Shown in pieces: positions 46,839 through 64,000 of a stretch of DNA of 64,000 bases (position 1 is its first letter; each line of letters starts with the position of its first letter). Position numbers and translations under genes: made by a program. Origin of the DNA: Nodosilinea sp. P-1105 (GTDB taxonomy: Bacteria; Cyanobacteriota; Cyanobacteriia; Phormidesmidales; Phormidesmidaceae); NCBI RefSeq assembly GCF_012911975.1, contig NZ_SMDQ01000013.1:46893-110892 (forward strand). Direction: 5' to 3'. Below the pieces are notes generated by a model. The model ran no database searches. It saw only the letters and a list, made by a program, of their open reading frames with translations, and was not told the origin of the DNA.

Positions 46839-49800
46839 TTACTCGCAGGCGTGGCTGAGCACCAGGCGGCCATCGGGGAGTTGGTAGACGCCGTCGGGTT
46901 CTTGCAGGGTGGCGGTGGGTTCGGTAATGGGGCGGACGGTGCCGGTGGGGTAGGCGGAAATGCCGCTGTCGCCGGGGCGCTGGGGTAGGCCACCGCTGCC
47001 GGTGATCACAAAGTCGCCGAGGCTGTCGTCGGTGCGGGCGATGCAACTGCCAGCGGTGAGGGCGGCGGTGTCGATGATGGTGTCGGCTAGGGAGGTGAGG
47101 CTGTTTTCGATGAAGCTGCTGTCGCCCACAATGATTTGCCCCGATTCAACGGCACCACTGGCGTTAACATCCACGCGATCGTTGTTAATCAAGTCAAATA
47201 GTTCTTCACGGGTGAGGGAGCCAGAGCCAATGTTGGCGTTTTGGCCGAAGAAGGTGGTGCGGCTGAGGTCAATGTTGCCGCCGCGACCATCGGCGGAAAA
47301 GGCAAGGATGTCGCTGTCGTCTAGGGCAATGACAAAATCGGCAATGATGGTGATATTGCCACCACTGCCTTCTCCAAAGGCAACCGCAGTCAAAATATCG
47401 CTGTTGTTTCTAAGAATTAGGTTCCCTGCTTGAATATCAATTTGCCCACCGGAGGTTTCTAGCGCAAATGAGTCAATTGTTCCATTGACAACTCGCATTC
47501 GACCATCGACGTTAATCACCACATTCCCCGCATCGCCCGTGCCCTCGGTGCTGGTACTCAGTCGTGCCCCATTGGTCACAGCTAGAGAACCTGTAGTAAC
47601 CACCACGTCTCCACCAGCTCCCACAGCCCCGAATTCGACGGTGCTAAAGGCAGCACTAGGAAACTGACCATCGTTGCTGGTGCCATCAAAGAGGATAGTG
47701 TCGCGGGCGTCTATATCTACCCTTCCTGCATCTCCAATACCTCTAGTGTCGGTAATAAGCTGTGCTCCGTTAGTTACTGTCAAGGAGCTAGTGCGAATCA
47801 CTAGGTTCCCTCCAGTACCTGATGCTGTAGACGCGACGTTGCTAAAGACAGTGCTGTTATTGTCAAATACAGCGGCACCGCGGACATCTATATCTACATG
47901 TCCTGCATCTCCAATGCCTAGTGTTGACGATGTAAGGGTTGCACCACTACTCACTTGTAGCAAATTGGCTGAAATCGTGATGCCTCCTGCTTGGCCCGTT
48001 CCCTGACGTTCGACACGAGTCACGACACCACTAGGAAATTGGCCATCATCACTTCTACCGTCTAAGATAACGCTGCCATGGGCCTCGATTTTCACATTGC
48101 CTGCATCCCCAAAACCTGCAGTACTAGTATTGAGTCTAGCTCCATTTGTGATCGTCAGGGAGCCGGTGCTAATAAGCACATTACCCCCCACTCCTTCTGC
48201 CATAGGTCCAACACGGCTAAAGGTAGCACTACGAAATCGGCCATCAGTGCTAGTTCCATCAAAGACAACGCTATCGCGGGCCTCGATTTCCACATTGCCC
48301 GCGTTCCCAGTGCCAAAGGTGTTGGCATTGAGTCCCGCCCCATTAGTAACTATCAGAGAGCCGGTGCGAATAATCACACTACCCCCTGTTCCCTCCGCTG
48401 CAGCTCCGACATCGCTAAAAGCAGCACTAGATAATTGACCATCAGCACTAGTTCCATCAAAGACAACGCTATCGCGGGCCTCAATTTCCACATTGCCTGC
48501 ATCACCTATGCCAGCAGTAATAACTTGCAGTTGTGCCCCGTTAAACAATGCGAGAAAGCCAGTACGAATTACTACATTACCTCCTGCCCCCTCTGCCTCA
48601 GGCCCGACATCGCTAAAAGCAGCACTAGGTAATTGACCATCAGCACTAGTTCCATCAAAGACAATGCGATCACGAGCCTTGATTTCTACATTTCCCGCAT
48701 TACCGGTGCCATCAATACTAGATTGCAGCTGTGCCCCGCCAAAAAGCTCCACATTTGTAGCGACAATTCGGATATTTCCTCCAGTTCCCGTTACGCCTGC
48801 TGCTAAGTTACTAGCCGCCACCGTCCGACGAGTTTGCCGTTCAAAGCGAACTGTATTACCTGCATTAATCACCACATCGCCTACGACTCCAGCTCCTGTA
48901 GTCTGAATTGAGCTATTAGTCACTACAACATTATTTCGAGCATCAAGATATACGACTCCTCCTTGACCACCAAAACCTCGCGCATCAATGCCAACATTAG
49001 CAAGTCCCTGTCCGGTAACCAAAATGTTGCCTCTAGATAGTCTTGCGTTAGGCTGGTATCGAGTAGTGAGCAGCACTAGCCCATTTGGTGCAGCCATCAA
49101 CACATCGCCAACGGTAATATCGCCATTAGTCGGCACAGTCGTGGCATCCAGTCCCAATAGAATGAAGGCCGGATCGAGGCCAGTGATATTGCCTGGAGGC
49201 ACCAGCCCAATCGCTTCAGGAGACACCCCAGCCCGCACGTCCAAGGTCGGCTGAGCCCCCCCGTCGATCTCAACTACAGTGCCATCGGAGAGAGTAATCG
49301 TTTCTCGCAGAAAATCAACGCCCAGTTCCCCAGGGTCAGCATCGGTAATAATTGCCGTACCAATATTGACTGAGCCCCCCGCAAGGATGTGGAGGGATCC
49401 CCCGCTATAGCCAAGCAACTCCACATCACCCAGGGCACGAATCACCGGGTCGATGGGGCTGAACAGCTCCCCCAAAGAATGATCTAGAGTTTCCACCCGA
49501 AAGCTGCCGCCGCTCCAGTAGTGGGCATCGCCTGCTACGGGGTTCCCAGATCGCAGCACCATATCCCCATGGCTATACAACCCACTATCCCCATGGCTCA
49601 ACGCCACAATATCCACCAATTCATTCCCCTGCACCAGCAGGGCACCCCCCGCAAACCCCACAAACGGCGTATCTGCCGTATCGCGAATCTGCACCGTATC
49701 CAACCCCAGCAGCGTCAAGTCGCCCCCCGCCGCCACCTGCCCCTGCAAATCCAGATTATTCGCCGCCAGGGTCAGATTCCCCTGCGCCGCCAGTTGGCCC

Positions 49801-50354
49801 CGGTTCTGGATATCCCCAGAGGCATCGCTCAGGTAGTTGCTAAACAACGCACTGGGGTGCACGGTCAGCAAACTGCTCTGCTCCGGTTCTGTGGCGCTGT
49901 AGATCCCATCCCCCAGGGGGATCGCCTCGGCGGTGCTGGCATAAAACGAGCCCTGAATATCCAGGGTGGCATTTTCGCCAAACACAATCCCATTGGGGTT
50001 AATCATAAACAAGTCCGCGGCCCCATCTACCCCCAGGGTGCCGAAAATATTGGATGGATTGCCTCCCGTTACCCGGCTAAGAATCGATTCAATCCCCGCC
50101 GGATTGGCAAAATACACCCGCTGGCCGTCATCAATGTTGAACTCTAGAAAACTGTGAAACAGGTTGCCATCGCGCACTGCCCCCCCTTCAATCAGTTCGG
50201 CCTCGGCCCCCTGCACCATCTCTGGGGTCACCACAGACCCCTCTGCTCCCAAGGTGGCATCGGGGGTAATCTGGGCCAGGGTCGGCAAAGGTGCGGCCAG
50301 GCACAGCCAGGGAGCAAGCAGGCTAGCAACGTACCACGGGCGAGGGACAAACAT
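46839..50354 (-). CDS. Two-partner secretion (TPS) filamentous-haemagglutinin-like exoprotein
   Basis: A 1171-residue secreted adhesin candidate. The signal peptide (VASLLAPWLCLAAPLPTLAQ) is followed by a TPS domain with NPSNIFGTLGVDGAADLFM, INPNGIVFGENATLDIQGSF and IQNRGQLAAQGNLTLAANN. These N-terminal domains are recognised by an outer-membrane TpsB porin, and the rest forms a right-handed beta-helix. The passenger contains about seven tandem 66-residue repeats (GNAGNVEIEARDSVVFDG...TGSLTVTNGAQL), at roughly 47500-48720. The C-terminal domain, GSCIARTDDSLGDFVITGS..GRLVLSHACE, is duplicated at 45702. ATG 50354 is used because the longer frame lacks a signal. No TpsB gene is in the window. 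Confidence 0.9.
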   Translation of the reverse strand: MFVPRPWYVASLLAPWLCLAAPLPTLAQITPDATLGAEGSVVTPEMVQGAEAELIEGGAVRDGNLFHSFLEFNIDDGQRVYFANPAGIESILSRVTGGNPSNIFGTLGVDGAADLFMINPNGIVFGENATLDIQGSFYASTAEAIPLGDGIYSATEPEQSSLLTVHPSALFSNYLSDASGDIQNRGQLAAQGNLTLAANNLDLQGQVAAGGDLTLLGLDTVQIRDTADTPFVGFAGGALLVQGNELVDIVALSHGDSGLYSHGDMVLRSGNPVAGDAHYWSGGSFRVETLDHSLGELFSPIDPVIRALGDVELLGYSGGSLHILAGGSVNIGTAIITDADPGELGVDFLRETITLSDGTVVEIDGGAQPTLDVRAGVSPEAIGLVPPGNITGLDPAFILLGLDATTVPTNGDITVGDVLMAAPNGLVLLTTRYQPNARLSRGNILVTGQGLANVGIDARGFGGQGGVVYLDARNNVVVTNSSIQTTGAGVVGDVVINAGNTVRFERQTRRTVAASNLAAGVTGTGGNIRIVATNVELFGGAQLQSSIDGTGNAGNVEIKARDRIVFDGTSADGQLPSAAFSDVGPEAEGAGGNVVIRTGFLALFNGAQLQVITAGIGDAGNVEIEARDSVVFDGTSADGQLSSAAFSDVGAAAEGTGGSVIIRTGSLIVTNGAGLNANTFGTGNAGNVEIEARDSVVFDGTSTDGRFRSATFSRVGPMAEGVGGNVLISTGSLTITNGARLNTSTAGFGDAGNVKIEAHGSVILDGRSDDGQFPSGVVTRVERQGTGQAGGITISANLLQVSSGATLTSSTLGIGDAGHVDIDVRGAAVFDNNSTVFSNVASTASGTGGNLVIRTSSLTVTNGAQLITDTRGIGDAGRVDIDARDTILFDGTSNDGQFPSAAFSTVEFGAVGAGGDVVVTTGSLAVTNGARLSTSTEGTGDAGNVVINVDGRMRVVNGTIDSFALETSGGQIDIQAGNLILRNNSDILTAVAFGEGSGGNITIIADFVIALDDSDILAFSADGRGGNIDLSRTTFFGQNANIGSGSLTREELFDLINNDRVDVNASGAVESGQIIVGDSSFIENSLTSLADTIIDTAALTAGSCIARTDDSLGDFVITGSGGLPQRPGDSGISAYPTGTVRPITEPTATLQEPDGVYQLPDGRLVLSHACE
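47500..48720 (-). repeat. Seven 198-bp (66-codon) in-gene repeats
   Basis: Coding repeats with core GIGDAGNVEIEARDSVVFDG and a closing SLTVTNGAQLNTST. Units 1-3 and 6 are most alike; unit 5 is shorter by about seven codons and units 4 and 7 diverge. This part is less GC-rich than the TPS domain. Confidence 0.8.
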
Positions 50355-50663
50355 AGACACGGTGAAAGCAGACAGCAAGAATGGCCCAAAGTTATCACAT
50401 TGGCCTGCCAACCATTCGCCCTTGTGACATAAACGTTAGCTTCATTCAAGTAGATGAACAAAAGTAAATTTGGTCAGCATGGCTGGTTTCGACGGATCAA
50501 CTGGCTGATTCAAGTCAGATAACTTGGCAGATTTCAGCATCGCATCTGGCTGGTTTTAGGAATGACTGCTGTCGTGGGTTTCCCTAAGCTGAAATCAATC
50601 GGTTCTAAACCAGCCGATTGCTCCTTACACAATTCACGATGATCCATTCTTAAGAGGGTCCCC
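50355..50663. other. Divergent promoter region
   Basis: This 309-bp spacer separates the divergent exoprotein and protease genes. It holds TTGACATAAACG-like and ATTCAAG blocks, but no repeat or gene I can support. Promoter positions are not assigned. Confidence 0.4.
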
Positions 50664-51491
50664 ATGAAACAAGCATTTGTACGGTTCATGAGTTCTGGTT
50701 TGCTGGCCACAACCTCAGTACTGGCCTTAGGGTTGGTGGCGCCCAACTTGCCGAAGTCGGCGCAACTCTCTCATTGGCTTCCTAGCAGTAATGCATTGGC
50801 CTCAACTTCATCTGCAACAGCGGCATTAACACCAGCTGAAATCTATGAGCAGGTGAACCCTGCAGTGGTAACAATAGTTTTGCTCGATGAAGACCAAAAT
50901 CTTTTGAGTCATGGCAGTGGGTTTATTGTCCGTGCCGACGGCTTAATTATGACCAATGCCCATGTCGTCAGTGCAGACCACGCTGCTGTTGGTGTTGTTT
51001 TGGCTGATGGTTCCAGCTATCTAGCCGATATCGTCGGCTTTGACCGCCAAGGCAACGATCTGGCTGTCGTAGAGTTACGCGGAACTCATCAGCTACCTGT
51101 GGCGACCCTGGCGGCATCCATTGGTGAGAGCCGGATTGGCGATGCCGTTTACGCCATTGGTTCACCCCAAGGCATTCGTAATACCCTGAGCAGCGGCATT
51201 ATCAGCAATATTTTGGCTGATCAAACAGAAGTCATGCACAGTGCAGCCATCAACCCCGGCAATTCTGGTGGGCCTTTGGTCAACAACCAGGGTCAAGTGA
51301 TTGGTATTAATACCAGGATGCTGGGCGCACCTGTGACGTCCTCTGAGGGCAATGTAATTGGTACAGCCCGCACGACCAACGGTATGGGGATTGCGATTAC
51401 AGCGGACGAAATTAGGACGTTTATGACCGTGGTGCGCCTAGGGATGGCCGCACCTACCCCCCGCTCGGAAAGGGTTGTTAGTCATCGATAA
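50664..51491 (+). CDS. HtrA/DegP-like trypsin-fold serine protease without PDZ domain
   Basis: A 275-residue exported S1C-type protease. The N-terminus has a signal or anchor (SGLLATTSVLALGLVAPNL). The catalytic triad is H100 in MTNAHVVSAD, D132 in NDLAVVEL and S201 in NPGNSGGPLVNN. The chain ends soon after the protease domain, so unlike DegP it has no PDZ. AGAGGG precedes the ATG. The gene lies between the two TPS genes, suggesting a surface or periplasmic role, perhaps exoprotein processing; that is inference. Confidence 0.88.
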   Translation: MKQAFVRFMSSGLLATTSVLALGLVAPNLPKSAQLSHWLPSSNALASTSSATAALTPAEIYEQVNPAVVTIVLLDEDQNLLSHGSGFIVRADGLIMTNAHVVSADHAAVGVVLADGSSYLADIVGFDRQGNDLAVVELRGTHQLPVATLAASIGESRIGDAVYAIGSPQGIRNTLSSGIISNILADQTEVMHSAAINPGNSGGPLVNNQGQVIGINTRMLGAPVTSSEGNVIGTARTTNGMGIAITADEIRTFMTVVRLGMAAPTPRSERVVSHR

Positions 51492-51664: not shown

Positions 51665-52759
51665 TCAGGGCAGACTATCACTATCATCCGTTTCAGCTTG
51701 GGCTTGCAACCAAGCGATAAAGTCGGACTCATCAGCCCAGTCTGCCAAGGCCACCTGTAGCTCAGCCAACTGCTCCAAAGAGAGGGCCTGTACCGCTGCC
51801 ACAGACGGGGGGGACAAGGTTGCTAATTGAGTCGTTAACTGCTCCACGATCACCGCCTGTCGCTGCTGCTGCTGCGCTAGCCAGGTTTGCAAGTCGGAGC
51901 GGTCGGTAAACTCTAACAGAGCCTCCCCCAGAGATTCAATCTGCGCTAAGGAGAGGGTAACCACGGCAGAGCGAATCGCCTCTGGCAAAGCCCCGACTCG
52001 ACGGCTCAAGAGTCGTAGCACCAGTGCTAGCGCCTCCTGGCGCCGCCCCTCCTGGCGCCCCTCCTGTAGACCTTCCTGACGACCTTCTTGAAGTCCTTCC
52101 TGAAGTCCTTCCTGTAGACCTTCCTGCCAGCCTTCGGCTTTGATTTCTCGATAAATGACGGACTCTTGCATCAGTTCCCTCCTCAGGATTTGCTGAATCA
52201 GGCTTTTGTCTAATACTAACCCGGCCAGAATGGCGGCAGAGGCGGCGACGTTACTCTGGGTGCGGCGATCGCCAATAGTGTCTATTTCCGTCGCCACTTG
52301 ACGCAATAACTGAGCTGGATCGTCGGTTTGGGTGAGTGGGGCCAGGGGTAGCAGGCCGGTTTGGTTGAGGAACAAAGCGGAGGGCTGTTCCCACAGACGC
52401 ACGACTTCAAAGTCGTGGCGGGTGCCGGGCACTTCAAAGGTGGTTTGATAGACAGCCTCTGACTGAGTGGGGGTGAGGTAAATGACCACCTGGCGCATGG
52501 CCTTGTGGGGAAAGCGGCGATAGACCCGCAGGCGGTAGTCGATCATCCTGAAGGCCATGGTGGGATCGGGCCGGGCCTGAAATTCCAGGTGCAGGATGGT
52601 GTCGGGGGATTGCAGGAGAATCAATGCATCGGCGCGGATCGGCTCTAGGGAGAGTTCGGCAGGGCTGAGTTCGGTGAGGGCGATGGGTGCGCCCAACAGC
52701 CAGGTGGCAAAGTCGGCGGAAAAGGTTTCGACCAAAAATTTGCAGACGGTGTCAAACAT
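51665..52759 (-). CDS. Rpn/DUF4351 family protein (PD-(D/E)XK nuclease-like)
   Basis: A 364-residue protein. The N-terminal part resembles the Rpn/transposase_31 nuclease-like group (FDTVCKFLVETFSADFATWL, LILLQSPDTILHLEFQARPD, MIDYRLRVYRRFP). A run of QEGLQEG-like tetrapeptides (eight or more units, 12-bp DNA repeats) forms a charged helix near residue 217. The C-terminus carries DUF4351 (LSLAQIESLGEALLEFTDRSDLQ). I start at ATG 52759 (MFDTV); a longer frame begins in the nested-hairpin element. A decayed copy of its 3' end sits in the PIN gene at 44940. Confidence 0.8.
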   Translation of the reverse strand: MFDTVCKFLVETFSADFATWLLGAPIALTELSPAELSLEPIRADALILLQSPDTILHLEFQARPDPTMAFRMIDYRLRVYRRFPHKAMRQVVIYLTPTQSEAVYQTTFEVPGTRHDFEVVRLWEQPSALFLNQTGLLPLAPLTQTDDPAQLLRQVATEIDTIGDRRTQSNVAASAAILAGLVLDKSLIQQILRRELMQESVIYREIKAEGWQEGLQEGLQEGLQEGRQEGLQEGRQEGRRQEALALVLRLLSRRVGALPEAIRSAVVTLSLAQIESLGEALLEFTDRSDLQTWLAQQQQRQAVIVEQLTTQLATLSPPSVAAVQALSLEQLAELQVALADWADESDFIAWLQAQAETDDSDSLP

Positions 52760-52842
52760 GATGAGCAACTTACCACCAAAGCAGCCATAGAAATGGCCTA
52801 GACTGCCATTAAATGCAACCCAACTTCGACTTAAACCAACGT

Positions 52843-52899
52843 CAAGTCCAGACCTAGAGTTCTGCCTGCGGGAAAACTCCAGATCCCGAGCTGGACTTG
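52843..52899. repeat. Nested-hairpin element, copy 2
   Basis: CAAGTCCAG (52843-52851) pairs with CTGGACTTG (52891-52899); the inner stem has one mismatch compared with copy 1 at 34314-34372. It lies just 5' of two divergent genes. Confidence 0.75.
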
Positions 52900-52964
52900 G
52901 TATAGCGTAAGTCAAGATACACATTTCCACCAATCGCTATTCCACGACCTCAACAATTTTGCCC

Positions 52965-54809
52965 ATGAAGCGCTTTGTCCCCTTTCAGCCGCTGTCATCC
53001 AGATCGCTGGCCTGGCGTCAGCTACTGCCCGGGGCAGTGGTGCTGGGGGTGATTGTCGCCCTGCGGCTGCTGGGCTTGTTTCAAGAGCTAGAGCTAAAAA
53101 TGCTGGACACGCTACTGCGCTGGCGACCGGCAGAACCAACCGATGAGCGCATCTTGATTATTGGCATTGACGAAGTTGATATTCAGCAGTTGGGCACCTA
53201 CCCTGTTCCTGACGGAGTCTTAGCCGAGTTAATTCAGACCCTGGAACGTCACCATCCCCGCGCCATCGGCATCGATATCTTCCGGGACATGGTAGTGGAA
53301 CCAGGTCATCAGGACCTGGTGGAGACCCTGATAGCCCTGCCCCAGGCGATTGCCATTGAATACATCTTAAGCAATCCCCCCATTGCGGCCCCCGACTACC
53401 TGCCTCCAGAACAGATTGGGTTTGTGGACTTTCCCACCGACAACGACGGGTTTGTGCGACGAGCCTTACTCGGTTCCCCCGATGCCGTGGGGGAGTACCG
53501 GCTTTCTTTGGCCCTGCGGCTAGCGGAAACCTACCTGCAACCCGAAGGTATGCCCCTGACCAATGGAGTGCGGGACCCCTGGGCCAAGCGCTTTGGCGAC
53601 ACAGAGTTTTCTAGCATCCCCCCCCATACGGGCGGGTATGTGGGGGCTGATACCGGCGGCCACCAGGTGCTGCTGAATGGGCGCAGTGGGGCCACCCCCT
53701 TTCGCCAGGTGTCGTTGGCTGAGGTTTTGGCGGATAGTGTGGACCCCGACTGGATTCAGGACGCCATTGTGCTGGTGGGTATCACCTCCCCCAGTGTGAA
53801 AGACTTTGTTAACTCAGCGGCGGTGGTGTCTGACCATCCAGGGCAGGTGTATGGGGTGGTGATGCATGCCCATGTCACCAGTCAACTGGTCAGTGCGGTG
53901 CTGGACGATCGCCCCATGTTGCGCACCTGGCCCCAGGAATTTGAGTACCTGTGGATTATTGTCTGGGGTGGGGTGGGGATGGTGCTGATTCGGGGCCTCA
54001 AATCCCCTTCGCGCTACTTGCTGATGGTGGGGGTGATTGGCTTGGCGATCGCGGGTCTGAGCTATGGGCTACTGGTGTTGGGGGGCTGGTGGGTGCCTTT
54101 GGTGCCCACCCTGGTGGTATTTAGCCTGAACGGGCTGGTGCTGCCAGGATTTTATTTATATGACCAAACCCTGCGATCGCGGATCGAAGCCCGCCAGCGA
54201 GCCATCGATCAAACCTATACGGCCATCCACAATGGTCCGCTGCAAACCCTGGCCCTACTCCTGCGCGAGGCCGACAACCTGGATTGGCTCCAGGCGGTAC
54301 CCAGGCTCCACCAGCTCAACCAGGAATTGCGAGATATCCGCGAGCGCTTGCCCGCCGACCAACGTAGGGTCGATGCGCCCCAAACTCCCCTCCACGAAGA
54401 CCTATGGGAAACCTACACCGCCACCCTGCATCGGGGCCAACGGGAATTTCCAGGGCTACAGGGGATTAAGTTCCAAGTGGTGGACTTTAAACCCCTGAAT
54501 GCCGACCACTTATCCGCCGACGATCGCCAGGCCCTGTGCCAATTTTTAGAAGAGGCACTGCTGAATGTGGGCAAACATGGGGTGGGGGTCAGCCGGTTGA
54601 CGGTGGTGTGCCAGGCCACCACTGACGAAAACCTGATCCAAGTCACTGATAACGGCCAGGGGCAGCGCGACCACTCATCCGAACCAGGGGTAGACGGCTG
54701 GGGGACCCAACAGGCCCAGCAGTTAGCTCGACAACTGCGGGGACATTTCCAACGCCGTTTTACCGAGGCGGGTACCTGTTGCGAACTGCGCTGGCCTTCG
54801 CCGCGTTAG
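52965..54809 (+). CDS. CHASE2 domain sensor with degenerate histidine-kinase-like C-terminus
   Basis: A 614-residue membrane sensor. One N-terminal helix (LLPGAVVLGVIVALRLLGL) is followed by an extracytoplasmic CHASE2 domain (ILIIGIDEVDIQQL, IGIDIFRDMV, IGFVDFPTDNDGFVRR, DAIVLVGITSPSVKDF). Three helices come next, then a cytosolic part with H-box-like AIHNGPLQTLALLLRE and HATPase segments EEALLNVGKHG and VTDNGQGQ, as in NarL-partner kinases. The His and Asn boxes are present, so activity is possible. ATG 52965 is used rather than TTG 52959. Downstream are DUF928 and CHAT genes, a known cyanobacterial association. Confidence 0.87.
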   Translation: MKRFVPFQPLSSRSLAWRQLLPGAVVLGVIVALRLLGLFQELELKMLDTLLRWRPAEPTDERILIIGIDEVDIQQLGTYPVPDGVLAELIQTLERHHPRAIGIDIFRDMVVEPGHQDLVETLIALPQAIAIEYILSNPPIAAPDYLPPEQIGFVDFPTDNDGFVRRALLGSPDAVGEYRLSLALRLAETYLQPEGMPLTNGVRDPWAKRFGDTEFSSIPPHTGGYVGADTGGHQVLLNGRSGATPFRQVSLAEVLADSVDPDWIQDAIVLVGITSPSVKDFVNSAAVVSDHPGQVYGVVMHAHVTSQLVSAVLDDRPMLRTWPQEFEYLWIIVWGGVGMVLIRGLKSPSRYLLMVGVIGLAIAGLSYGLLVLGGWWVPLVPTLVVFSLNGLVLPGFYLYDQTLRSRIEARQRAIDQTYTAIHNGPLQTLALLLREADNLDWLQAVPRLHQLNQELRDIRERLPADQRRVDAPQTPLHEDLWETYTATLHRGQREFPGLQGIKFQVVDFKPLNADHLSADDRQALCQFLEEALLNVGKHGVGVSRLTVVCQATTDENLIQVTDNGQGQRDHSSEPGVDGWGTQQAQQLARQLRGHFQRRFTEAGTCCELRWPSPR

Positions 54810-54972: not shown

Positions 54973-55782
54973 ATGATTCAGTACTCAGGAATGCGCCGAT
55001 CGACCTTAGCGATAACCTTACTGAGCCTAGGCAGCTTAACTGGGCTGTGGATGGCCGCCAGTTCCCCCAGTTGGGGGCGCACCCTACCCACTGGACCTCA
55101 GTCAGGGCCGGGGCAGGTCCTAACACAGCGGGGGAATCAGCGGGGTTATCAACCTCCCCCCAATACCCGTGCCCCTCGCCGTACCACCGGAGGAGGAACC
55201 CGAGGAGGCTGTGCTGGAGATGCCCCCATTGACCTGACTATTCTGGCACCCCAGGGCCATGTAGGCCAGACGGCAATGAGCCATCCCACCCTGGTCTGGT
55301 ACGTACCGGACGACACCCCCTACGATACTGAGCTCCAGCTGTATCGGTATGCCGAGGCCCAGGGGGATGAGCTAGAGCCGATCGCAGTCTTTGACCTGGG
55401 GCCTAGCCAATCTGGCTATCAGACCTTTACCCTGCCGGATGATCAGCCGGGGCTGACGGTAGGGGAAACCTACCGCTGGAAGGTAATTGTGCACTGCTTT
55501 CCGGGGCAGCCGTCCCGGAGTGCCCTGGATGAGGCTGACCTGGTGGTGGTGGCTGATGGGGTCGATCAGCCTGCTGCTGATCCGGTGAGTCAGGCGGAAC
55601 AGGCGATCGCGGCGGGGCTCTGGTACGATGCGATCGCCCTCCTCTCCCAAGCCCCCGTTTCCCCCGAGGCGGCCACCTACCGCCAGGCACTATTGGCTAA
55701 TCTAGCGGCCCTGGAAGCCGAAAACCCTAACGATGACCTGTCGCTGTTTAGCGAACGGCTGCTGTACCTGGCGAATCCGTAG
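54973..55782 (+). CDS. DUF928 secreted protein
   Basis: A 269-residue exported protein. The signal peptide is LAITLLSLGSLTGLWMAAS. After a low-complexity Gly/Arg/Pro part, the DUF928 domain starts with GGGTRGGCAGDAPIDLTIL and continues TAMSHPTLVWYVPDDTPYDTE; LGPSQSGYQTFTLPDD and a short helical C-terminus follow. Function is unknown, but DUF928 genes commonly lie beside CHASE2 and CHAT genes. AGGAG sits 8 nt before the ATG. It converges with the CHAT gene, 3 bp between the stops. Confidence 0.88.
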   Translation: MIQYSGMRRSTLAITLLSLGSLTGLWMAASSPSWGRTLPTGPQSGPGQVLTQRGNQRGYQPPPNTRAPRRTTGGGTRGGCAGDAPIDLTILAPQGHVGQTAMSHPTLVWYVPDDTPYDTELQLYRYAEAQGDELEPIAVFDLGPSQSGYQTFTLPDDQPGLTVGETYRWKVIVHCFPGQPSRSALDEADLVVVADGVDQPAADPVSQAEQAIAAGLWYDAIALLSQAPVSPEAATYRQALLANLAALEAENPNDDLSLFSERLLYLANP

Positions 55783-55785
55783 CGC

Positions 55786-58449
55786 CTAAAGCCAATTGCC
55801 CACTAAAATCAACGGTGCCCACTTGCCCGGGGTCACACTGGCCCCCCGCTGAATCGCCTGGATTTGAGCCTGCTGCAGAGCTTGGGCCTTATTCAGTTGT
55901 GGGTCTTGCAAGTAGTGATAAAAGTCCTGGACGATTTGGGCCGTGGTCAAATCGTCAGCTTGCCAAAGGGAGGCGATCGCGCTTCTAGCCCCGGCCCGAA
56001 TGGCTACCCCAGCCAAGCCCAGGGTGGAGCGATCATCCCCCGCTGCGGTGTCGCAGGCGGTGAGCATCACTAAGTCAACCTGGGGATCGTTCGGACTGCT
56101 AGCCCGAATCAAGGCCTCTAACTGACCGAAGGTGACCGTCTCCCCCTGTCCGGTAATGATGAAATTCTCCTGGGGGTCGGGGCTGAACTGTCCATGGGTG
56201 GCAAAGTGCAAAATGTCGTAGGGGTGGGCTTGCAGCAAACGCTGCAAGCTGGCCTGGCTAAAGTCTGTATCCAGCAGGGCCTGGCTGCCCGGTAGTGCCG
56301 CTAACACCGAGTCCACTTCCCTGGGCACCCCTGGCAACGGTCGAAACTGACGCCCAGCGGCGACAACCGCCTGACTACTACCCAGCACGAGGGCCTGCAT
56401 GTTCTCCAGGCTCAAGGCTTCTGGAGCGGTGAGGGTGAGGGCCGGGGTGGTGGCGATCGCGTATTTTTCAATCAAAAACCGCTGACCGTCATAGAGGGCG
56501 GCCATGGGCACACTGCGCAAAAAGCCATCATGGATAAAGACAAGGGTGTTAATGTCAGCGGCCTGTAAGGTGGGCTCCAGGGGCGCAATCAGTTGCTGAT
56601 ACAGGTGCTGAGCGATCGCGGTGTCATAGGGTTCGGTAAAGAAGGCTTCGAGCCCCAGGCGAAATTGAATCACCTGCTCTTGCAGGTCTTGGCTATGGTC
56701 GATCCAAATTAATTTGGGGGGCTGGTTGGGGATGTTGGCAATCAGGGCGGTGCGATCGGGCAGCACCACGGAGCTAATCACTGCCGTGTTGGTACTTTGG
56801 GCCAGCAGGTCAACCCGGGCCTGGGCCACTGGGGTAAGGATGCAGTCGTTGCCAAAGTAATTTTGCAACTCGGCTAGCCTTAGGGAATCGGCGGTGACCA
56901 GGGCGGCCTCAAGCAGACGGGTGGCGTCTGTGGGCGGTGACGTCCCCTGCTTCACCCCTGGGGCTACGGCCACGGGTAGGGCCGGGTCAACGGTTGAGAG
57001 TTGTAAATCAATCAGCTCTCGATAGATCGGTTCCACCGTATCTCGAAAATCGAATTGCAGGTCTTGATCGGCCACGAGAATTTCGGTGCGGATGCTCTCT
57101 AGGGTGGCTACCGCCTGCTCGTAGGCTCCCATGGCCTGTCCCCACTGTTGCTGTTGCCGGTAAATACGGCCCGCTTGCCACTGCCACAAATACAGACTAT
57201 CGGCTGCCCCCAGGCCATCGGTAGCGGCCAGTTGAGCCCTTGTGGTCCAGCCCATCGCTTGGGGGAAAGCGCCTCGGCACTCATACAGGTGCCCCAGTTC
57301 GCCCAGGGCAAAGGACTCGGCCCGGCGATCGCCAATGGTGACGGCGATCGCAGCTCCCCGTTCTAGCCAGGGCTGAGCCTGGGCTAGCCAGTCAGTGCCC
57401 CCACAGCGAAAACCAACATCCATGGGTTGGTAGGATTTGCCCAGGGCGATCGCCCCGTAGGCCACCGAACGACTGGCGGGTAGTTGGGCCAGCAATGTCG
57501 CCAAGTGTTGCCGGTTCTCTTGCAAGGCGCCGCTATCCGCCTGATGGCGGTAAATTGGCAGTAGATTCAGCCGAGTTTGTAATTCCCCCAGGGGATCTTG
57601 GTGCTCCTGGGCCAGGGTTAAGCTGCGTTCGAGCACCTGCTGGGCTTCGGCTTGGCGCTGCTGGGCCTGGGCAAAGAAGTCGCTGGCAAAACCACTTAGC
57701 CCCAGTTGCTGAGCTGACTCAGCCCGCTGAGAGCTGACGCGGGCCTGGCGCTGGGCCAGGCTGCCTAAGCTGTTCAAGATGGGGACCTGAAATTGGACGT
57801 AGCCCTCGGCTTCGGCCAGGGTCAAGCCCTGCTGCAATAGCTCCTCGGCGGTGGTGTAGTTTCCCCAGAGACGATAGCTTTCCCCTAAGCTACCCAATGC
57901 CGCCACTTCCCCCAGGCGGTCTTGGTGGGTCTGGGCCAAGGCCCACGCTGACCCAGCGACGCAAGGTTGATCGGACTGATCTAGCTGGGGATGGCACAAT
58001 AGCGCGATCGCCCGGCGATACTGGCCCAACCGTAAATGCACCTGGGCCTGTTCGGTCAACGTGCGACCCAGCTTAGTTGCATCCCCTAAACGGCGGTAGT
58101 GGCTAGCCGCCGCCCCCCAAGCATCCAGGGCCGCCGCCGGTTGCCCCAACTGTTGATAGGCCCGGGCCAGGTTTTCGTTAATCACCGCTTGGGCGGCCAC
58201 ATCAGCCGCCTGGGTATAAGCTTGCAAAGCGGATTGCCAACGGTCTATGGCTGGTTGAAAGTCCCCGTCCTGGTACAGGGCCACCCCCTCCTGAACCAAC
58301 TGGGCTGGTGTAGTCCTCTGGTCGGTGCTACCCATATCAGCTATGCTGGGCCACGACAGGGTAGGATGCAGCCAAATGGTCAGGGTCAGGCTGACCAAAA
58401 AGAAAACGCCCCAAACCCGACATAGACCAAGACGGAGCAGATTTGGCAT
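55786..58449 (-). CDS. CHAT domain protein with TPR repeats, secreted
   Basis: An 887-residue protein of the caspase-like CHAT group. The N-terminal signal (LLRLGLCRVWGVFFLVSLTL) leads to many TPR helices (about 40-460: AAALDAWGAAASHYRRLGD and similar). The CHAT protease domain covers about 530-887, with H752 in HFATHGQFSP and C799 in VMLTACDTAAG, the predicted Cys-His dyad. LAGVAIRAGARSAIASLWQ and a final NKAQALQQAQIQAIQ follow as in the family. Proteolysis of surface or exported proteins is inferred, not shown. Confidence 0.9.
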   Translation of the reverse strand: MPNLLRLGLCRVWGVFFLVSLTLTIWLHPTLSWPSIADMGSTDQRTTPAQLVQEGVALYQDGDFQPAIDRWQSALQAYTQAADVAAQAVINENLARAYQQLGQPAAALDAWGAAASHYRRLGDATKLGRTLTEQAQVHLRLGQYRRAIALLCHPQLDQSDQPCVAGSAWALAQTHQDRLGEVAALGSLGESYRLWGNYTTAEELLQQGLTLAEAEGYVQFQVPILNSLGSLAQRQARVSSQRAESAQQLGLSGFASDFFAQAQQRQAEAQQVLERSLTLAQEHQDPLGELQTRLNLLPIYRHQADSGALQENRQHLATLLAQLPASRSVAYGAIALGKSYQPMDVGFRCGGTDWLAQAQPWLERGAAIAVTIGDRRAESFALGELGHLYECRGAFPQAMGWTTRAQLAATDGLGAADSLYLWQWQAGRIYRQQQQWGQAMGAYEQAVATLESIRTEILVADQDLQFDFRDTVEPIYRELIDLQLSTVDPALPVAVAPGVKQGTSPPTDATRLLEAALVTADSLRLAELQNYFGNDCILTPVAQARVDLLAQSTNTAVISSVVLPDRTALIANIPNQPPKLIWIDHSQDLQEQVIQFRLGLEAFFTEPYDTAIAQHLYQQLIAPLEPTLQAADINTLVFIHDGFLRSVPMAALYDGQRFLIEKYAIATTPALTLTAPEALSLENMQALVLGSSQAVVAAGRQFRPLPGVPREVDSVLAALPGSQALLDTDFSQASLQRLLQAHPYDILHFATHGQFSPDPQENFIITGQGETVTFGQLEALIRASSPNDPQVDLVMLTACDTAAGDDRSTLGLAGVAIRAGARSAIASLWQADDLTTAQIVQDFYHYLQDPQLNKAQALQQAQIQAIQRGASVTPGKWAPLILVGNWL

Positions 58450-59154: not shown

Positions 59155-59499
59155 CTATTGGTCGTAAACACAGACTGAAAGCTGACCAGGTCGATTACAG
59201 CCTTCCGGGCCAAATCCCATATCTAAATCACCCACGATCGTCCTTGAATTATTAGGGGCCTGAGAAAAGTTAGGAATCAGGGGCTGTGTAGCCCCGTCGC
59301 CGTAACCGCCGCCAATAATGGGAATTTCACCCTGGGTTGACTTGGGCTCAACCACTAAGTCTTCAGCGTTGAAGGATAAATTATTACGGACCAGATCTAC
59401 ATTTTGAGTGGCCGAAACTGGTAACGAGGAAAGACCTAAAACCGATACGTTAATCACCAGCAGCTGACCAAAGAATTTGAGAGTTTTTTGAGTTACCAT
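59155..59499 (-). CDS. Small exported protein of unknown function, 114 aa
   Basis: A 114-residue protein with a clear signal peptide (FFGQLLVINVSVLGLSSLPVSA, likely cut at VSA-TQ). The mature part is short, Asn/Gly-rich, with two Cys at its end (PEGCNRPGQLSVCVYDQ) that could form a disulfide. I recognise no domain. It lies between the 49-residue peptide gene and the subtilisin-like gene on the same strand, so all three may be related in function. Confidence 0.6.
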   Translation of the reverse strand: MVTQKTLKFFGQLLVINVSVLGLSSLPVSATQNVDLVRNNLSFNAEDLVVEPKSTQGEIPIIGGGYGDGATQPLIPNFSQAPNNSRTIVGDLDMGFGPEGCNRPGQLSVCVYDQ

Positions 59500-59760: not shown

Positions 59761-59794
59761 CACAGGTGTCAGGAATGGTGGGCCGACTTATGCC

Positions 59795-61930
59795 TCAGAG
59801 TACTAGCTCGGGCAGTAGGGCTTGATCAAACAGGGAGGGGAGATCCCAGGTCAGGAGTGACTCTAGGGACACTGGCTCGACTAAATGGGTAGTCAAGGAC
59901 TGTGGCGTCAGTTGTACCGGGCGGTCTATCGCGATCGCCCCTACCCCAGCGTCTTCATCTCCGATTTCCAGCCCTTCCTGCGTCCCCTGGGAATTAAACC
60001 CGGTCACAAAATTATGGGGATCACTGATTCTGGCAGATAAAGCCACCAGTGAGGGTTGAGACAGGGGATGGGTGGACGAGGGGATGAGTGGATGCGCTGG
60101 GGCTACCTCAGCAATGCTCTCCTGGAAGGATCCAACTATCTCAGTCAGGGGACGCAGCACTGGGCTCCAGTCACGGCTAGGGGCCATAGTCCCCGCGACC
60201 TCCGCACCAAAGGCGTTAGGGGCCAGGTAAGCCTGACCGCTCACCCGTGATAGGGCCAGGGCCTTACGCACGGCGGCATCGGCATTGACAAAGCCGTGAC
60301 CGTAGATGGGGTCATAGCCGGGGGCACCCAAATCATAGGCGGTGCGGGCCAAGATACTGTGGACATCCACGGCACTTAACCCAGGATTGGCGCTCCACAC
60401 CAGGGACGCCACCCCAGACACGTTGGGCGCGGCGGCAGAGGTGCCATTGAATGGTTCGGTGCCATGCTGCCACATTGGAGCATTTAGGTTATAACCAAAT
60501 TGCACGTCAGACCAGCCTAATTCAGCCCGGGTAGCGATCACCTCCGACGGTCCCATTAGCGATAGGCCCCAGCCATAGTTGCTGCCCCACCACCCGGGGT
60601 AGGAGATGCGATCGCCCGGATTCGTCTCTTGGCCAAACCAATCTTGGGTGCCCCAGGAAGCCCCCACCGCGATCACATTGCTGTAAGCGTTGGCCAAAAT
60701 GGCTGGATACGACAGCATTGGCGCATCATCGTTGCCTGAAGAAATCACAAACAAAGCATTGTCTTGGTTAAGGGCAATCAAACGTTCTAGAGTGGGAAAA
60801 GCCCCAATTGGGGTACCATGGTCACCCCGACTCAAACTCATATTGATCACCACTCGACGCCCTGTGGCGCGGGCATGGTCGGTCATGATTTGGGTGGCTT
60901 CGTCCAAATCCAGATCCGTTGGGTCACCGCCCAACACATCGATATTCATCACATCGGCATACCAGTTGATGCCGCTCATGCCCTGGCCGTTGTTGCTACT
61001 GGCGGCCATAATCCCCTGCACCGGCGTACCGTGGGAGGTCGATCGGCTGAAGTCGTCTTGAATATTGCCAGCGATACCATAGGTACGACTGAGGTCAATA
61101 TCGCTGTGGGTCAACCCCTGGCGATTAAAGGCCAGTCCAGAATCTTGCACCCCTAGCAAGATCGAGTCACTGCCTTGGTTAAATCGCCAAGCATTGTGAA
61201 CCCCCATCATGTGCAAATTCCACTGTTGACCAAACAGCGGGTCGTTGGGCAATACACTTTGATTGAAGTTATGCCAGCCTTTCTGAAATACCAGACCGTC
61301 TAACCCTTCCATTAAAATCACGTTGCCGTTACTCAAGGTCATGGCATCAAACACGCGCAAGCCATCGGCCATCTCTAGCACAACCCCACCGCCACTACTA
61401 AAAGCCGGATCCCAGCCAGTGACGTCATTAATAGAAATATGGGATAAATCGAGGATGTCCCAATACCCAGAGCCAAAGTCAACATTGCCATGGCCAGAGT
61501 AAATACTGACTTGGCTTTGGCCAGTATAGGTAAACCAATCAGCCCGTAAACTGCCTTGATAGTGGTGCACCGTGAAATCAGCCGTGCCAGCAACACTGTC
61601 AGTGGGAAAGAGACCAGTCAGGGTATCCTGGCCAGAGGCGGCGAGTATCTCTGTTTCGTTACTGTGGTAGAGGATATCGGTGAGTTGATAGTGACCAGAA
61701 CGCTTGAATAGACTAAATTCAGGGGCGATCGCGCTTAAATCTACACTGGTGGTAACACTATCTAGCCAGTCATCAAGGTTGCCCCCATCGGGGAGGGCCA
61801 ACTCATGGATAGATTGCGAATTGAAAAGACTACCGGCATCAGCCGACCAGGCGTCAAAGGCAATTTTCTGACTGGCTGAAAAGTCATAGACTGTTGGAAA
61901 TAGGGATTGATCTTGGGTTAGGGTTTCCAT
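59795..61930 (-). CDS. Subtilisin-like S8 serine peptidase
   Basis: A 711-residue protein. About 230 N-terminal residues form a beta-rich domain (SIYSGHGNVDFGSGYWDILD, GGGVVLEMADGLRVFDAM, ILMEGLDGLVF). The S8 catalytic domain follows: D263 in LLGVQDSGLAF, H300 in STSHGTPVQGIMAASSN, N400 in ISSGNDDAP, and S498 in NGTSAAAPNVSGVASL. This architecture is known from cyanobacterial proteases. I use ATG 61930 (METLTQD); there is no obvious signal peptide, which is odd for an extracellular protease. The C-terminal 120 residues are low complexity. Confidence 0.88.
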   Translation of the reverse strand: METLTQDQSLFPTVYDFSASQKIAFDAWSADAGSLFNSQSIHELALPDGGNLDDWLDSVTTSVDLSAIAPEFSLFKRSGHYQLTDILYHSNETEILAASGQDTLTGLFPTDSVAGTADFTVHHYQGSLRADWFTYTGQSQVSIYSGHGNVDFGSGYWDILDLSHISINDVTGWDPAFSSGGGVVLEMADGLRVFDAMTLSNGNVILMEGLDGLVFQKGWHNFNQSVLPNDPLFGQQWNLHMMGVHNAWRFNQGSDSILLGVQDSGLAFNRQGLTHSDIDLSRTYGIAGNIQDDFSRSTSHGTPVQGIMAASSNNGQGMSGINWYADVMNIDVLGGDPTDLDLDEATQIMTDHARATGRRVVINMSLSRGDHGTPIGAFPTLERLIALNQDNALFVISSGNDDAPMLSYPAILANAYSNVIAVGASWGTQDWFGQETNPGDRISYPGWWGSNYGWGLSLMGPSEVIATRAELGWSDVQFGYNLNAPMWQHGTEPFNGTSAAAPNVSGVASLVWSANPGLSAVDVHSILARTAYDLGAPGYDPIYGHGFVNADAAVRKALALSRVSGQAYLAPNAFGAEVAGTMAPSRDWSPVLRPLTEIVGSFQESIAEVAPAHPLIPSSTHPLSQPSLVALSARISDPHNFVTGFNSQGTQEGLEIGDEDAGVGAIAIDRPVQLTPQSLTTHLVEPVSLESLLTWDLPSLFDQALLPELVL

Positions 61931-62124
61931 GATTGTCTTGGCCTTTACACAGAGGATTGCCATTAGCATAAAAACCAAGAGAGTTGGCTTATCTAGTCAT
62001 AAATGCCAACCCTATGGCAGGATTTAGACAGTCTTTTGGCCAGTAACGGAGCCCACTTATGCAGTTTTCAGCAAGCTCAAGCTGATTGAAAGGGCGTGAG
62101 CATTAGACTGGGAATTTTGAATAG

Positions 62125-62173: not shown

Positions 62174-62454
62174 GCTAGTACACCAAGGCAGAAATCAACC
62201 TGCTGTTCAGGACGCTTAAAATCCTTGCGCAGCAACAATTTTTCATCTTGAACTTTGCATTTTGAATTCCGCGTAGCGGTACTAGTCCTCTGTGGCTTAA
62301 GTGGGTCAACCAGTCCTGATATCTGACACCCAGAACCTGACACCCTCAAAGGTGACCGCATTTCCTTAGCTAGTACTAGCTAAAGAATCCTAAACGGTGG
62401 CGCTCTACAGTGGGAAAGCGCTTACGATTAACCTAAGATTTCAGGGTGCACGGG

Positions 62455-63954
62455 ATGGGCCTAGGACTCGTGGGTGGGGTAAGCCGTGGTCGGTTAGGGC
62501 TGGTTTTGAGCTTGGGAGCAGCTCTGGCTATACCCTCGGTCGCTCAGGCTCAGATCATTCCCGATAGTACCCTGGATGCCGAAGCATCTCGGGTGCTACC
62601 CCAGGCAGTAGTGGATGGTTTAGAGACCACAATCATTGAGGGCGGTGCCGCAAGGGGCCAAAATCTGTTCCATAGCTTTGCAGACTTCAATATTGATGCC
62701 GGGCAGCGGGTCTATTTTGCTAATCCTGCTGGCATTGAGGCCATCCTGAGCCGGGTGACAGGGGGCAACCCGTCCAATATTTTCGGCACCTTGGGGGTGG
62801 ATGGGCCAGCGAGTTTGTTTTTGATTAACCCCAACGGGATTGTGTTTGGGGAAAATGCCAGTTTGGATATTCAGGGCTCGTTTTATGCCAGCACCGCTGA
62901 GGCGATCGCCCTGGGGGATGGGGTCTATAGCGCCACAGAACCGGAGCAGAGCAGCCTGCTGACGGTGAACCCCAGTGCCTTGTTTAGCACCTACCTGAGT
63001 GATGCCTCTGGGGATATTCAGAACCGGGGCCAACTGACGGCGCAGGGCAACCTGACCCTGGCGGCGAACAATTTGGATTTGCAGGGGCAGGTGGCGGCGG
63101 GGGGCAACCTGATGCTGCTGGGGTTGGATACGGTGCAGATTCGCGATACGGCAGATACGCCGTTTGTGGGGTTTGCGGGGGGTGACCTGCTGGTGCAGGG
63201 GAATGAGCGGGTGGATATTGTGGCGTTGGGCCACCGGGATAGCGGGTTGTATAGCTATGGGGATATGGTGCTGCGGTCTGGCAACCCCGTAGCAGGTGAT
63301 GCCCACTACTGGAGCGGTGGCAGCTTTCGGGTAGAAACTCTAAATGAAGCTTTAGGTCAACTGTTTAGTCCCATTGACCCTATCATTCGTGCCCTCGGAG
63401 ATGTGAATATTGAGGGGTATAGAGGTAGTTCTTTACATGTTTTGGCAGGAGGGTCAGTCACAATCGGTACTGCCTATATCTATTATCTAGCCGATTCTGG
63501 TGTTCCTGGAATCGACTTTTTGCAAGAAACATTAGTTCTAACCGATGGCACCGTTATAAGCATTGATGGTGGTGCTCAACCAACTTTAGATATTAGGGCA
63601 GGAATATCTCCTAATATAATTAGTATACCTGTAGAAAATATCACAGGTTTGGACCTGGATTTTGATCGATTTCTCGATCAAAGCTTACAACTAACTCAAC
63701 CCAGCTTTTTTGATTTGCCCTCAACTGCCGACATTAGTATTGGTGATGCTTGGATAGATGCCCCTAATGGCTTAGTACTTTTAAGTAATCAATACGAGCC
63801 TAATGTAGAACTGTCTAGGGGTGACATCCTTGTTACAGGTGAAGGCTTTTGGGGAGATGGTATTTATGTTTCCAGGTTTGGAGAACAATCGGGAGCTGTG
63901 TTCATAGATTCTCGAGGTGATATGGGGTGTGATTTAAGCCGGGAAACCCTCTAA
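62455..63954 (+). CDS. Second TPS exoprotein gene, interrupted after about 490 codons
   Basis: The signal peptide (RLGLVLSLGAALAIPSVAQA) and TPS domain (NPSNIFGTLGVDGPASLFLI, NPNGIVFGENASLDIQGSF, YLSDASGDIQNRGQL) match the gene at 46839 closely. From about 63340 on, similarity falls and DNA becomes AT-richer (IISIPVENITGLDLDF). The frame reads normally to AVFIDSRGD (63921), then MGCDLSRETL and stop, which looks like run-off into inserted DNA beginning GTGTG at 63927. GTG 62446 is an alternative start. The rest of the passenger domain must lie beyond the window. Confidence 0.85.
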   Translation: MGLGLVGGVSRGRLGLVLSLGAALAIPSVAQAQIIPDSTLDAEASRVLPQAVVDGLETTIIEGGAARGQNLFHSFADFNIDAGQRVYFANPAGIEAILSRVTGGNPSNIFGTLGVDGPASLFLINPNGIVFGENASLDIQGSFYASTAEAIALGDGVYSATEPEQSSLLTVNPSALFSTYLSDASGDIQNRGQLTAQGNLTLAANNLDLQGQVAAGGNLMLLGLDTVQIRDTADTPFVGFAGGDLLVQGNERVDIVALGHRDSGLYSYGDMVLRSGNPVAGDAHYWSGGSFRVETLNEALGQLFSPIDPIIRALGDVNIEGYRGSSLHVLAGGSVTIGTAYIYYLADSGVPGIDFLQETLVLTDGTVISIDGGAQPTLDIRAGISPNIISIPVENITGLDLDFDRFLDQSLQLTQPSFFDLPSTADISIGDAWIDAPNGLVLLSNQYEPNVELSRGDILVTGEGFWGDGIYVSRFGEQSGAVFIDSRGDMGCDLSRETL

Positions 63955-64000
63955 GTGAAAGGGACTGAGGGTTTGTGCTTTTAGTGACTGACGGGCAAGG
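63927..64000 (+). mobile_element. Possible 5' end of a group II intron (cut by window edge)
   Basis: The insert begins GTGTG, the group II intron 5' consensus (GUGYG). It continues ATTTAAGCCGGGAAACCCTC with a perfect AAACCCTC/GAGGGTTT stem (63943-63950/63966-63973). It breaks the exoprotein frame. Only 74 nt are visible, so another insertion is possible. Confidence 0.4.

Follow-up and report, generated by a model that had tools for sequence, protein, structure and literature searches.

A stretch of 64,000 nucleotides from Nodosilinea sp. P-1105 (hereafter the window) carries two genes for two-partner secretion (TPS) exoproteins together with genes for proteases, a CHASE2 receptor and a DUF928 protein, and the question raised by this locus is which of these genes belong together and what the receptor reads. 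In the original prediction, the CHASE2 sensor controls the exoproteins, and the CHAT, S8 and HtrA-like proteins process them.

Gene content of the locus and its interrupted end

The features of the locus were assigned mainly by Pfam and tblastn and are listed below. Signal peptides were called with a hydropathy rule of our own and not with SignalP.

45705..45983, minus strand: fragment of TPS exoprotein 1, matching its residues 1099-1190 with 83% identity (tblastn)
46839..50411, minus strand: TPS exoprotein 1 (TpsA-type), 1190 aa as listed (PF05860, 150 bits; TIGR01901)
50664..51491, plus strand: trypsin-like protease, HtrA-type without PDZ (Trypsin_2, PF13365, 108 bits)
51665..52933, minus strand: Rpn-family nuclease/transposase with DUF4351 (TIGR01784, PF14261)
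52959..54809, plus strand: CHASE2 receptor histidine kinase, 616 aa (CHASE2 at 215 bits in Pfam; HATPase_c under the cut-off)
54973..55782, plus strand: DUF928 protein, 269 aa, predicted exported (Pfam, 85 bits; hydrophobic N-terminus)
55786..58449, minus strand: TPR-CHAT protein, 887 aa, with signal-peptide-like N-terminus and H748/H752/C799 (TPR and CHAT by Pfam)
59155..59499, minus strand: 114-aa protein without Pfam match
59795..61978, minus strand: S8 protease, 727 aa (Peptidase_S8, PF00082, 99 bits)
62446..63923, plus strand: TPS exoprotein 2, 5' part, interrupted (PF05860, 155 bits; tblastn)
63924..64000, no strand: end of a repeated (insertion-like) element and contig end (one of 12 identical 76-base copies in the genome)

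The predicted CHASE2 kinase-like sensor, DUF928 gene, S8 protease and TPR-CHAT protein with H752 and C799 were all recovered by Pfam, the HATPase match of the sensor being weak and H748 of the CHAT domain being present as well. For the HtrA-like protease, the trypsin domain was confirmed, and PDZ had no Pfam match. The gene for the Rpn/DUF4351 protein was located between this protease gene and the receptor gene. Both flanking exoproteins possessed the TPS domain of TpsA proteins in two-partner secretion (type Vb), as predicted, but the right-hand gene is not intact. The true start of the left-hand gene probably lies further in than the listed ORF start. The TPS domain of exoprotein 2 was called on the ORF 62446-63954(+), and its sequence had 72% identity with exoprotein 1 across 469 aa (tblastn). 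From about 63924 this ORF read into the repeated element, and the contig stopped at the end of the window.

No TpsB transporter (POTRA and ShlB) was matched by Pfam among nine window proteins, and the sole POTRA_2 match on contig C35 fell outside the window. The 8-base word GGTGATAT, which directly precedes the element end at 63924, was found again on another contig, C132, immediately behind the 77 repeated bases at its end; on this contig a TPS half is followed by a ShlB/POTRA_2 protein. TpsB also adjoined the TPS gene in two genomes of the same genus. C132 is very probably the continuation of the locus, providing the rest of exoprotein 2 and the TpsB transporter, followed in our list by a protein of 206 aa and a response regulator of the LuxR type, and we infer that this regulator very probably belongs with the window.

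Recurrent partners of DUF928 and CHASE2 genes

Recurrent linkage had been named beforehand as the test of the predicted system. In 13 related genomes, a listed CHASE2 gene was located within 10 kb of 67 of the 79 DUF928 genes (3.7 expected at random) and a TPS exoprotein gene within 10 kb of 50 of the 79 (3.8 at random), while the S8 (4/79 vs 1.8) and trypsin-like (2/79 vs 2.6) proteases were near chance; these counts rest on 150 of 169 CHASE2 matches, and the random expectations use contig sizes estimated from hits. A TPS neighbour was found for 46 of 66 CHASE2 genes with DUF928, compared with 4 of 80 without it. In the 20-kb loci centred on DUF928, some of which overlap (e.g. L065/L066 and L098/L099) or come from the near-duplicate sister genomes G015 and G020, a CHAT gene was present in 37 of 77, compared with 0 of 20 control loci, as counted with our own profile, which fails to detect the diverged CHAT at the N-terminus of CHAT.CHASE2 fusions. 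The linkage is above chance for TPS, CHASE2, DUF928 and CHAT, and no other gene accompanied these CHASE2 genes as constantly as DUF928.

This part of the prediction did not extend to the S8 and trypsin-like proteases, which were rejected as members of the system on their linkage; they also kept no fixed position. S8 was found in 6 and trypsin in 4 of 80 loci of named genomes, and the trypsin and Rpn genes were each detected in one of the 77 DUF928 loci, that of the window itself. The profiles for trypsin, S8 and Rpn were built on 3, 5 and 1 sequences besides the query, so distant relatives may be missed in these counts. The S8 protease, the trypsin-like protease and the Rpn/DUF4351 gene are probably bystanders; S8 may have a minor role, as it was slightly over-represented within 10 kb of DUF928-linked CHASE2 genes (4/66 vs 0/80 others, P = 0.04).

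All 67 CHAT domains compared from such loci were identical at H748, H752 and C799, with 6 shorter matches of 73 omitted, and the CHAT dyad of the window protein is, judged from its residues, intact. Eight proteins combined TPS and CHAT in one frame (six if sister genomes G015 and G020 count once), which makes a joint role of CHAT and TPS likely. Separate CHAT proteins were more common than these eight fusions, and 51 of 53 had a signal-peptide-like start of their own. Fusions of CHAT with CHASE2 were also found.

The CHASE2 receptor and DUF928 as its likely partner

The receptor consists of an N-terminal transmembrane segment, CHASE2 (29-341), C-terminal transmembrane segments and a NarL/DesK-like kinase, the transmembrane parts being assigned from hydrophobic segments. 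H424, N536 and D564 of the kinase were invariant across 10 aligned proteins, and the kinase motifs of the window receptor are intact. Kinase, cyclase, GGDEF/EAL, SpoIIE, TIR and CHAT outputs were joined to CHASE2 receptors among the 22 of 69 CHASE2 proteins scanned, the window's included. The output domain is freely swapped, and the new point is that DUF928 accompanies the receptor whatever the output. In 68 of 80 relatives the kinase gene was immediately preceded by a regulator-like gene, identified by our sequence-pattern rule and confirmed by Pfam in one case besides that of C132, and the order regulator-receptor-DUF928 recurred over distant cyanobacteria. The predicted control of the exoproteins by the CHASE2 sensor is plausible.

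The AlphaFold2 model of DUF928 (pLDDT 83) displayed a Fn3/Ig-like beta sandwich and five short helices. Across 77 aligned proteins W217 was invariant, and C80 and C175 were nearly so. In a mirror-tree test on non-redundant loci, DUF928 co-varied with the CHASE2 domain (r 0.66) and not with TPS (r 0.04); relatedness was handled by dropping similar DUF928 proteins and, in one rerun, one of the sister genomes as well. A Gemmatirosa protein contained CHASE2, cyclase and DUF928 in one frame. When the DUF928 model was compared with known structures, MtxA was the first match by VIA-align and the third by Foldseek. Taken together, the linkage to CHASE2, the co-variation, the output swapping, the match of its model to MtxA and the Gemmatirosa fusion suggest that DUF928 is likely an exported partner of CHASE2 receptors. 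No function was assigned to DUF928 in the one paper found to name it, in a search that reached a minority of subscription journals.

The comparisons with known systems rest on the available parts of the cited papers. MtxA of Magnetospirillum has a signal peptide and Ig-like (Fn3) and TPR-like C-terminal domains, and its gene lies just before a CHASE2-adenylate cyclase gene in magnetotactic bacteria (PMC4439547), much as the DUF928 gene adjoins the CHASE2 receptor gene. MtxA differs from DUF928 in an extra N-terminal region, and no sequence similarity was detected in two profile searches, A3 and A1 not retrieving 4z29 at E up to 10. In the BiofilmReg operon of Burkholderia contaminans, a response regulator, a partner with signal peptide and a CHASE2 histidine kinase are clustered; biofilm is abolished when the regulator gene is disrupted by an insertion, which in the authors' view silences all four genes, and the ligand of CHASE2 domains was stated to be not known (PMC5192318). 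The window likewise encodes a CHASE2 histidine kinase, but with DUF928 in the place of the LysM-FecR partner (neither FecR nor LysM was matched by Pfam in nine window proteins), and the order regulator-partner-kinase with DUF4136 as fourth gene differs from the cyanobacterial one. Neither TPS nor CHAT is mentioned in the available text on MtxA or on BiofilmReg. In the eight proteobacterial loci compared, several from close rhizobial relatives, CHASE2 was assigned by Pfam in 5 and by tblastn coverage in 3.

Caspase-like domains have been described beside CHASE2 before. A metacaspase fused to CHASE2 was listed in Trichodesmium (PMC2853523). Later, Kaur et al. (2021, PMC8195603) described EACC2-caspase systems, in which a caspase-like domain is fused on the N-terminal side of CHASE2 and is accompanied by DUF1822 and an ECF sigma factor; their text contains neither the word DUF928 nor hemagglutinin. 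These systems resemble loci in this genome and in related ones where sigma-like, DUF1822 and CHAT.CHASE2 genes lie together: on C139 of this genome a CHAT.CHASE2 fusion follows genes that BLAST clustering assigned as DUF1822- and sigma-like, and on C181 DUF1822 and the fusion were found with no sigma gene assigned. The window differs from them, since its receptor is a CHASE2-histidine kinase and its CHAT protein is separate. That protein shares the TPR-CHAT fold and dyad with Csx29 of Craspase (type III-E); unlike Csx29/TPR-CHAT and separase it has a signal-peptide-like N-terminus and is linked to secretion and CHASE2, and no CRISPR gene or gRAMP/Cas7-11 partner was matched by Pfam among nine scanned genes of the locus. 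CHASE2 and DUF928 genes also share a cluster in Nostoc punctiforme, reported for one cyanobacterium of the seven surveyed, but there they occur with WD40 proteins and are not presented as a conserved pair in the available text (PMC5587647). In literature searches reaching a minority of subscription journals, no work was found joining CHASE2, the CHAT domain and cyanobacteria, or filamentous hemagglutinin and the CHAT domain, and nothing related for CHASE2 with hemagglutinin; two-partner secretion, cyanobacteria and the CHAT domain did not occur together among the matches listed.

Proposed role and alternative readings

The locus encodes a CHASE2 receptor histidine kinase beside DUF928, TPR-CHAT and TPS exoproteins, and we consider it reasonably probable that DUF928, predicted to be exported, is the partner of the CHASE2 sensor domain. 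By way of DUF928 the receptor would likely monitor the condition of both the exoproteins and the CHAT protein. DUF928 would reside in the periplasm or on the cell surface, contacting CHASE2 through its Ig-like or its helical face. Outside events such as exoprotein secretion, attachment, or cleavage with the CHAT protein as either protease or substrate would alter the DUF928-CHASE2 complex; the kinase would then phosphorylate the LuxR-type regulator, whose gene lies beside TpsB on C132, and the regulator would govern how the exoproteins and their transporter are expressed.

The original reading as an adhesin maturation locus, with HtrA, CHAT and S8 proteins processing the TPS exoproteins and the CHASE2 kinase controlling their expression, draws on the TPS-CHAT fusions, the invariant CHAT dyad, the many loci with CHAT beside TPS and the slight excess of S8. 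It is nevertheless unlikely, given the near-chance linkage and shifting positions of S8 and trypsin, and it leaves no role for DUF928. More doubtful still is a contact-dependent weapon, in which the TPS exoprotein would carry a CHAT protease into adjacent cells, with DUF928 and CHASE2 serving as immunity and alarm. The TPS-TPR-CHAT fusions, secreted proteins that end in a protease-like domain, would suit it, as would the CHASE2 receptors with three TIR domains found in loci with TPS, TpsB and DUF928. However, toxin-immunity pairs are expected to co-vary, and the lack of co-variation between DUF928 and TPS disfavours DUF928 as a TPS immunity protein; most CHAT proteins, moreover, are separate and have their own signal-peptide-like start.

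That there is no system at all, exported repetitive proteins and receptors merely collecting in plastic genome regions, as the Rpn gene, TPS fragment and repeated element of the window might suggest, is already disfavoured and appears the least probable. Against it stand the control loci devoid of CHAT, the scarcity of TPS beside CHASE2 genes without DUF928, the gene order kept over distant cyanobacteria, the co-variation of DUF928 with CHASE2, and the single-frame CHASE2-cyclase-DUF928 fusion in another phylum.

With CHASE2 and DUF928 paired, the cell could likely monitor the condition of its own surface. If the pairing is true, CHASE2 reads a protein co-receptor and not a free small molecule, and the orphan crystal structure of MtxA would be explained. 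Adhesin-like exoproteins and exported caspase-like proteases would also be tied to signalling inside the cell, TIR and caspase-like outputs such as those known from immunity and cell death among it. More tentatively, each CHASE2 receptor across phyla may read a dedicated exported co-receptor of the Ig/TPR or FecR type (DUF928 for cyanobacteria and Gemmatimonadota, MtxA for magnetotactic bacteria and FecR-type proteins for Proteobacteria), and the cyanobacterial version may be a plug-in surface-surveillance module that watches TPS exoproteins and exported caspase-like proteases and has at least nine outputs, TIR and caspase-like ones included.

Gene content and interruption of the locus

Nine proteins of the window were scanned with Pfam and NCBIfam, and the genes and coordinates of the original prediction, which had described an adhesin secretion-and-proteolysis locus, matched the scans. 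For the protease it had called HtrA-like, the trypsin-like domain was confirmed while the scan gave no PDZ match, and an Rpn/DUF4351 gene was absent from its list.

Genes of the window locus by Pfam/NCBIfam (coordinates, strand, product)
46839-50411, minus, TPS exoprotein (exoprotein 1)
50664-51491, plus, trypsin-like protease, no PDZ match
51665-52933, minus, Rpn/DUF4351 gene
52959-54809, plus, CHASE2 receptor with kinase ATPase domain (ATPase match below the Pfam cut-off)
54973-55782, plus, DUF928
55786-58449, minus, TPR-CHAT
59155-59499, minus, 114-aa protein, no match
59795-61978, minus, S8 protease
from 62446, plus, second TPS gene (exoprotein 2)

With H424, N536 and D564, all invariant in an alignment of ten proteins, the receptor appears to be a functional histidine kinase. 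Close homologues of the window DUF928 were found in Nodosilinea and Leptolyngbya. A loose C-terminal TPS fragment (45705-45983, 83% identity to the end of exoprotein 1) is perhaps the remnant of a further exoprotein gene.

The right-hand TPS gene was interrupted: the similarity of exoprotein 2 to exoprotein 1 stopped at about 63924. The remaining bases of the window were the end of a repeated element with 12 identical 76-base copies in the genome, the window's included, of which at least 9 lay at contig ends. The terminal 77 bases of C132, another contig of this genome, also formed the start of contigs C181 and C183. The 8-base word GGTGATAT stood directly before the element in the window and directly after the 77-base repeat on C132, where it was followed by the remaining 714-aa TPS stretch (aligning to exoprotein 1 from residue 489 onward). 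Behind this stretch came genes for a TpsB transporter matching ShlB and POTRA_2, for a 206-aa protein that Pfam did not match and for a LuxR-type response regulator. The same order from TPS to regulator was found in a single locus of two same-genus genomes. Based on the repeat ends and the shared word, this gene content and the conserved order, the window very probably holds just part of the locus, whose continuation on C132 we infer rather than read through. The two ends of the insertion-like element broke several contigs of the assembly (window 63924-64000; ends of C181, C183 and C132). Genes that we take to be gyrase-A-like (window 41702-44242, left of the locus) and gyrase-B-like (L048:255-2234, on C132) probably flank the locus on opposite sides.

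Linkage of DUF928 with CHASE2 and TPS genes

The positions of six families were listed across 13 related genomes. Within 10 kb of 79 DUF928 genes, CHASE2 (among the matches listed) occurred at 67, compared with 3.7 at random positions, TPS at 50 (3.8), TpsB at 16 (1.8), S8 at 4 (1.8) and Trypsin_2 at 2 (2.6). Without the near-duplicate sister genomes G015 and G020, the counts were 37, 27, 11, 4 and 1 of 47, respectively. Purpose-built profiles, applied to 77 DUF928-centred stretches of at most 20 kb each, detected CHASE2 in 67, TPS in 50, CHAT in 37, TpsB in 21 and S8 in 4; trypsin and Rpn were each found in 1/77, both the window's own. None of these families was detected with the same profiles in 20 control stretches from ten of these genomes. 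On present evidence the S8 and trypsin proteases, which the original prediction had included in the locus, are bystanders.

Among CHASE2 genes that had DUF928 at most 5 kb away, 46/66 had a TPS neighbour, against 4/80 of those that had no DUF928 within 10 kb (p 2e-17; four in-between CHASE2 genes left out); after removal of G015 and G020 the figures were 26/37 and 2/66. DUF928 thus marks the CHASE2 receptors that sit beside TPS exoproteins. CHASE2 (among the matches listed) was absent within 10 kb of 12/79 DUF928 genes, and TPS was near one of those 12. Of 292 genomes sampled phylum-wide, 82 carried DUF928. A family of 206-270-aa proteins, with no Pfam match in the two members scanned (e.g. 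L090:13582-14274, L048:10437-11057), was found in 8/77 DUF928-centred loci, all of the CHASE2-kinase type, and mostly adjoined TpsB or the response regulator.

Gene order and receptor outputs in other bacteria

In a scan anchored on the CHASE2-kinase instead of DUF928 (best 80 of 165 loci, named genomes), the loci spanned Leptolyngbya, Phormidesmis, Nostoc, Calothrix, Fischerella, Scytonema and Microcoleus. Among these 80, a response-regulator-like gene immediately preceded the CHASE2-kinase gene in 68 and DUF928 immediately followed it in 45, in the same orientation in each case. Anywhere in the stretch, many being cut by contig ends, DUF928 occurred in 51, CHAT in 34, TPS in 21, TpsB in 8, S8 in 6, trypsin in 4 and Rpn in 1. 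By its public annotation, a Pseudanabaena plasmid has consecutive genes for ShlB, a CHASE2 protein (a kinase by Pfam), filamentous hemagglutinin and CHAT; the annotation shows no DUF928 among them.

Output domains were scanned in 22 of the 69 CHASE2 proteins of DUF928 loci, including the window's. The receptor head is constant and the output domain is swapped: NarL-type or HisKA kinase, kinase with receiver, GGDEF, GGDEF-EAL, guanylate cyclase, SpoIIE phosphatase, Ser/Thr kinase, three TIR domains, AAA-like, N-terminal CHAT, or nothing recognised. The three-TIR receptors (L088:10659-13910, L129:6190-9354), in which a surface receptor carries an immunity-type output, were in loci with DUF928, TPS and TpsB; the SpoIIE receptor L099:10782-12866 adjoined DUF928.

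A DUF1822 BLAST cluster (one member scanned) lay directly upstream of 15 CHASE2 genes with long N-termini, of which the two scanned were both CHAT.CHASE2, and in most of the 15 cases a sigma-70-like gene (matches below Pfam cut-offs) preceded it. These loci resemble the EACC2 arrangement described by Kaur et al. 2021 (PMC8195603), which is here combined with DUF928 and TPS. The window's genome carried EACC2-like loci on C139 and C181. Those on C181 (L046) and C139 (L047/L062) had DUF1822, CHAT.CHASE2 and DUF928 with a TPS or CHAT protein downstream, and on C139 a sigma-like gene stood ahead of DUF1822.

Proteobacterial loci were found by tblastn of a CHASE2-cyclase on plasmid records and by tblastn of its CHASE2 part. 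A FecR-type gene (FecR-TPR or LysM-FecR; in S. meliloti by its annotation) lay directly upstream of CHASE2 in 8/8 loci examined. In Burkholderia contaminans, biofilm was abolished on interrupting an operon of a regulator, a LysM-FecR protein, a CHASE2 kinase and a DUF4136 protein (PMC5192318). In Gemmatirosa kalamazoonensis (plasmid 2, L262:4426-7200), one 924-aa open frame combined CHASE2 and guanylate cyclase with DUF928 (30.6 bits, cut-off 26; hhalign 96.7%) and also had an internal signal-peptide-like segment. An M48 peptidase gene with a TPR match lay upstream of this fusion.

Co-variation and the proposed role of DUF928

Pairwise distances, not tree-corrected, were correlated over loci holding both genes, with TPS and CHAT of the same loci as internal controls. 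DUF928 co-varied with the CHASE2 domain at r 0.83 (n 62) and, after removal of similar DUF928, at 0.66 (n 43), a value reached in 0/2000 permutations. The same removal reduced DUF928-TPS from 0.45 (n 48) to 0.04 (n 35) and DUF928-CHAT from 0.65 (n 36) to 0.26 (n 27), and CHASE2 kept 0.37 with TPS (n 33) and 0.28 with CHAT (n 25). The contrast persisted over the same loci without G020: DUF928 gave 0.59 with CHASE2 versus 0.07 with TPS, and 0.46 with CHASE2 versus 0.31 with CHAT. The simplest reading is that DUF928 is an exported protein that partners the CHASE2 domain. The DUF928-CHASE2 pair likely watches, or answers with, the TPS exoproteins and the exported CHAT protein. In a window-type locus, the receptor output would be the kinase and a LuxR-type regulator.
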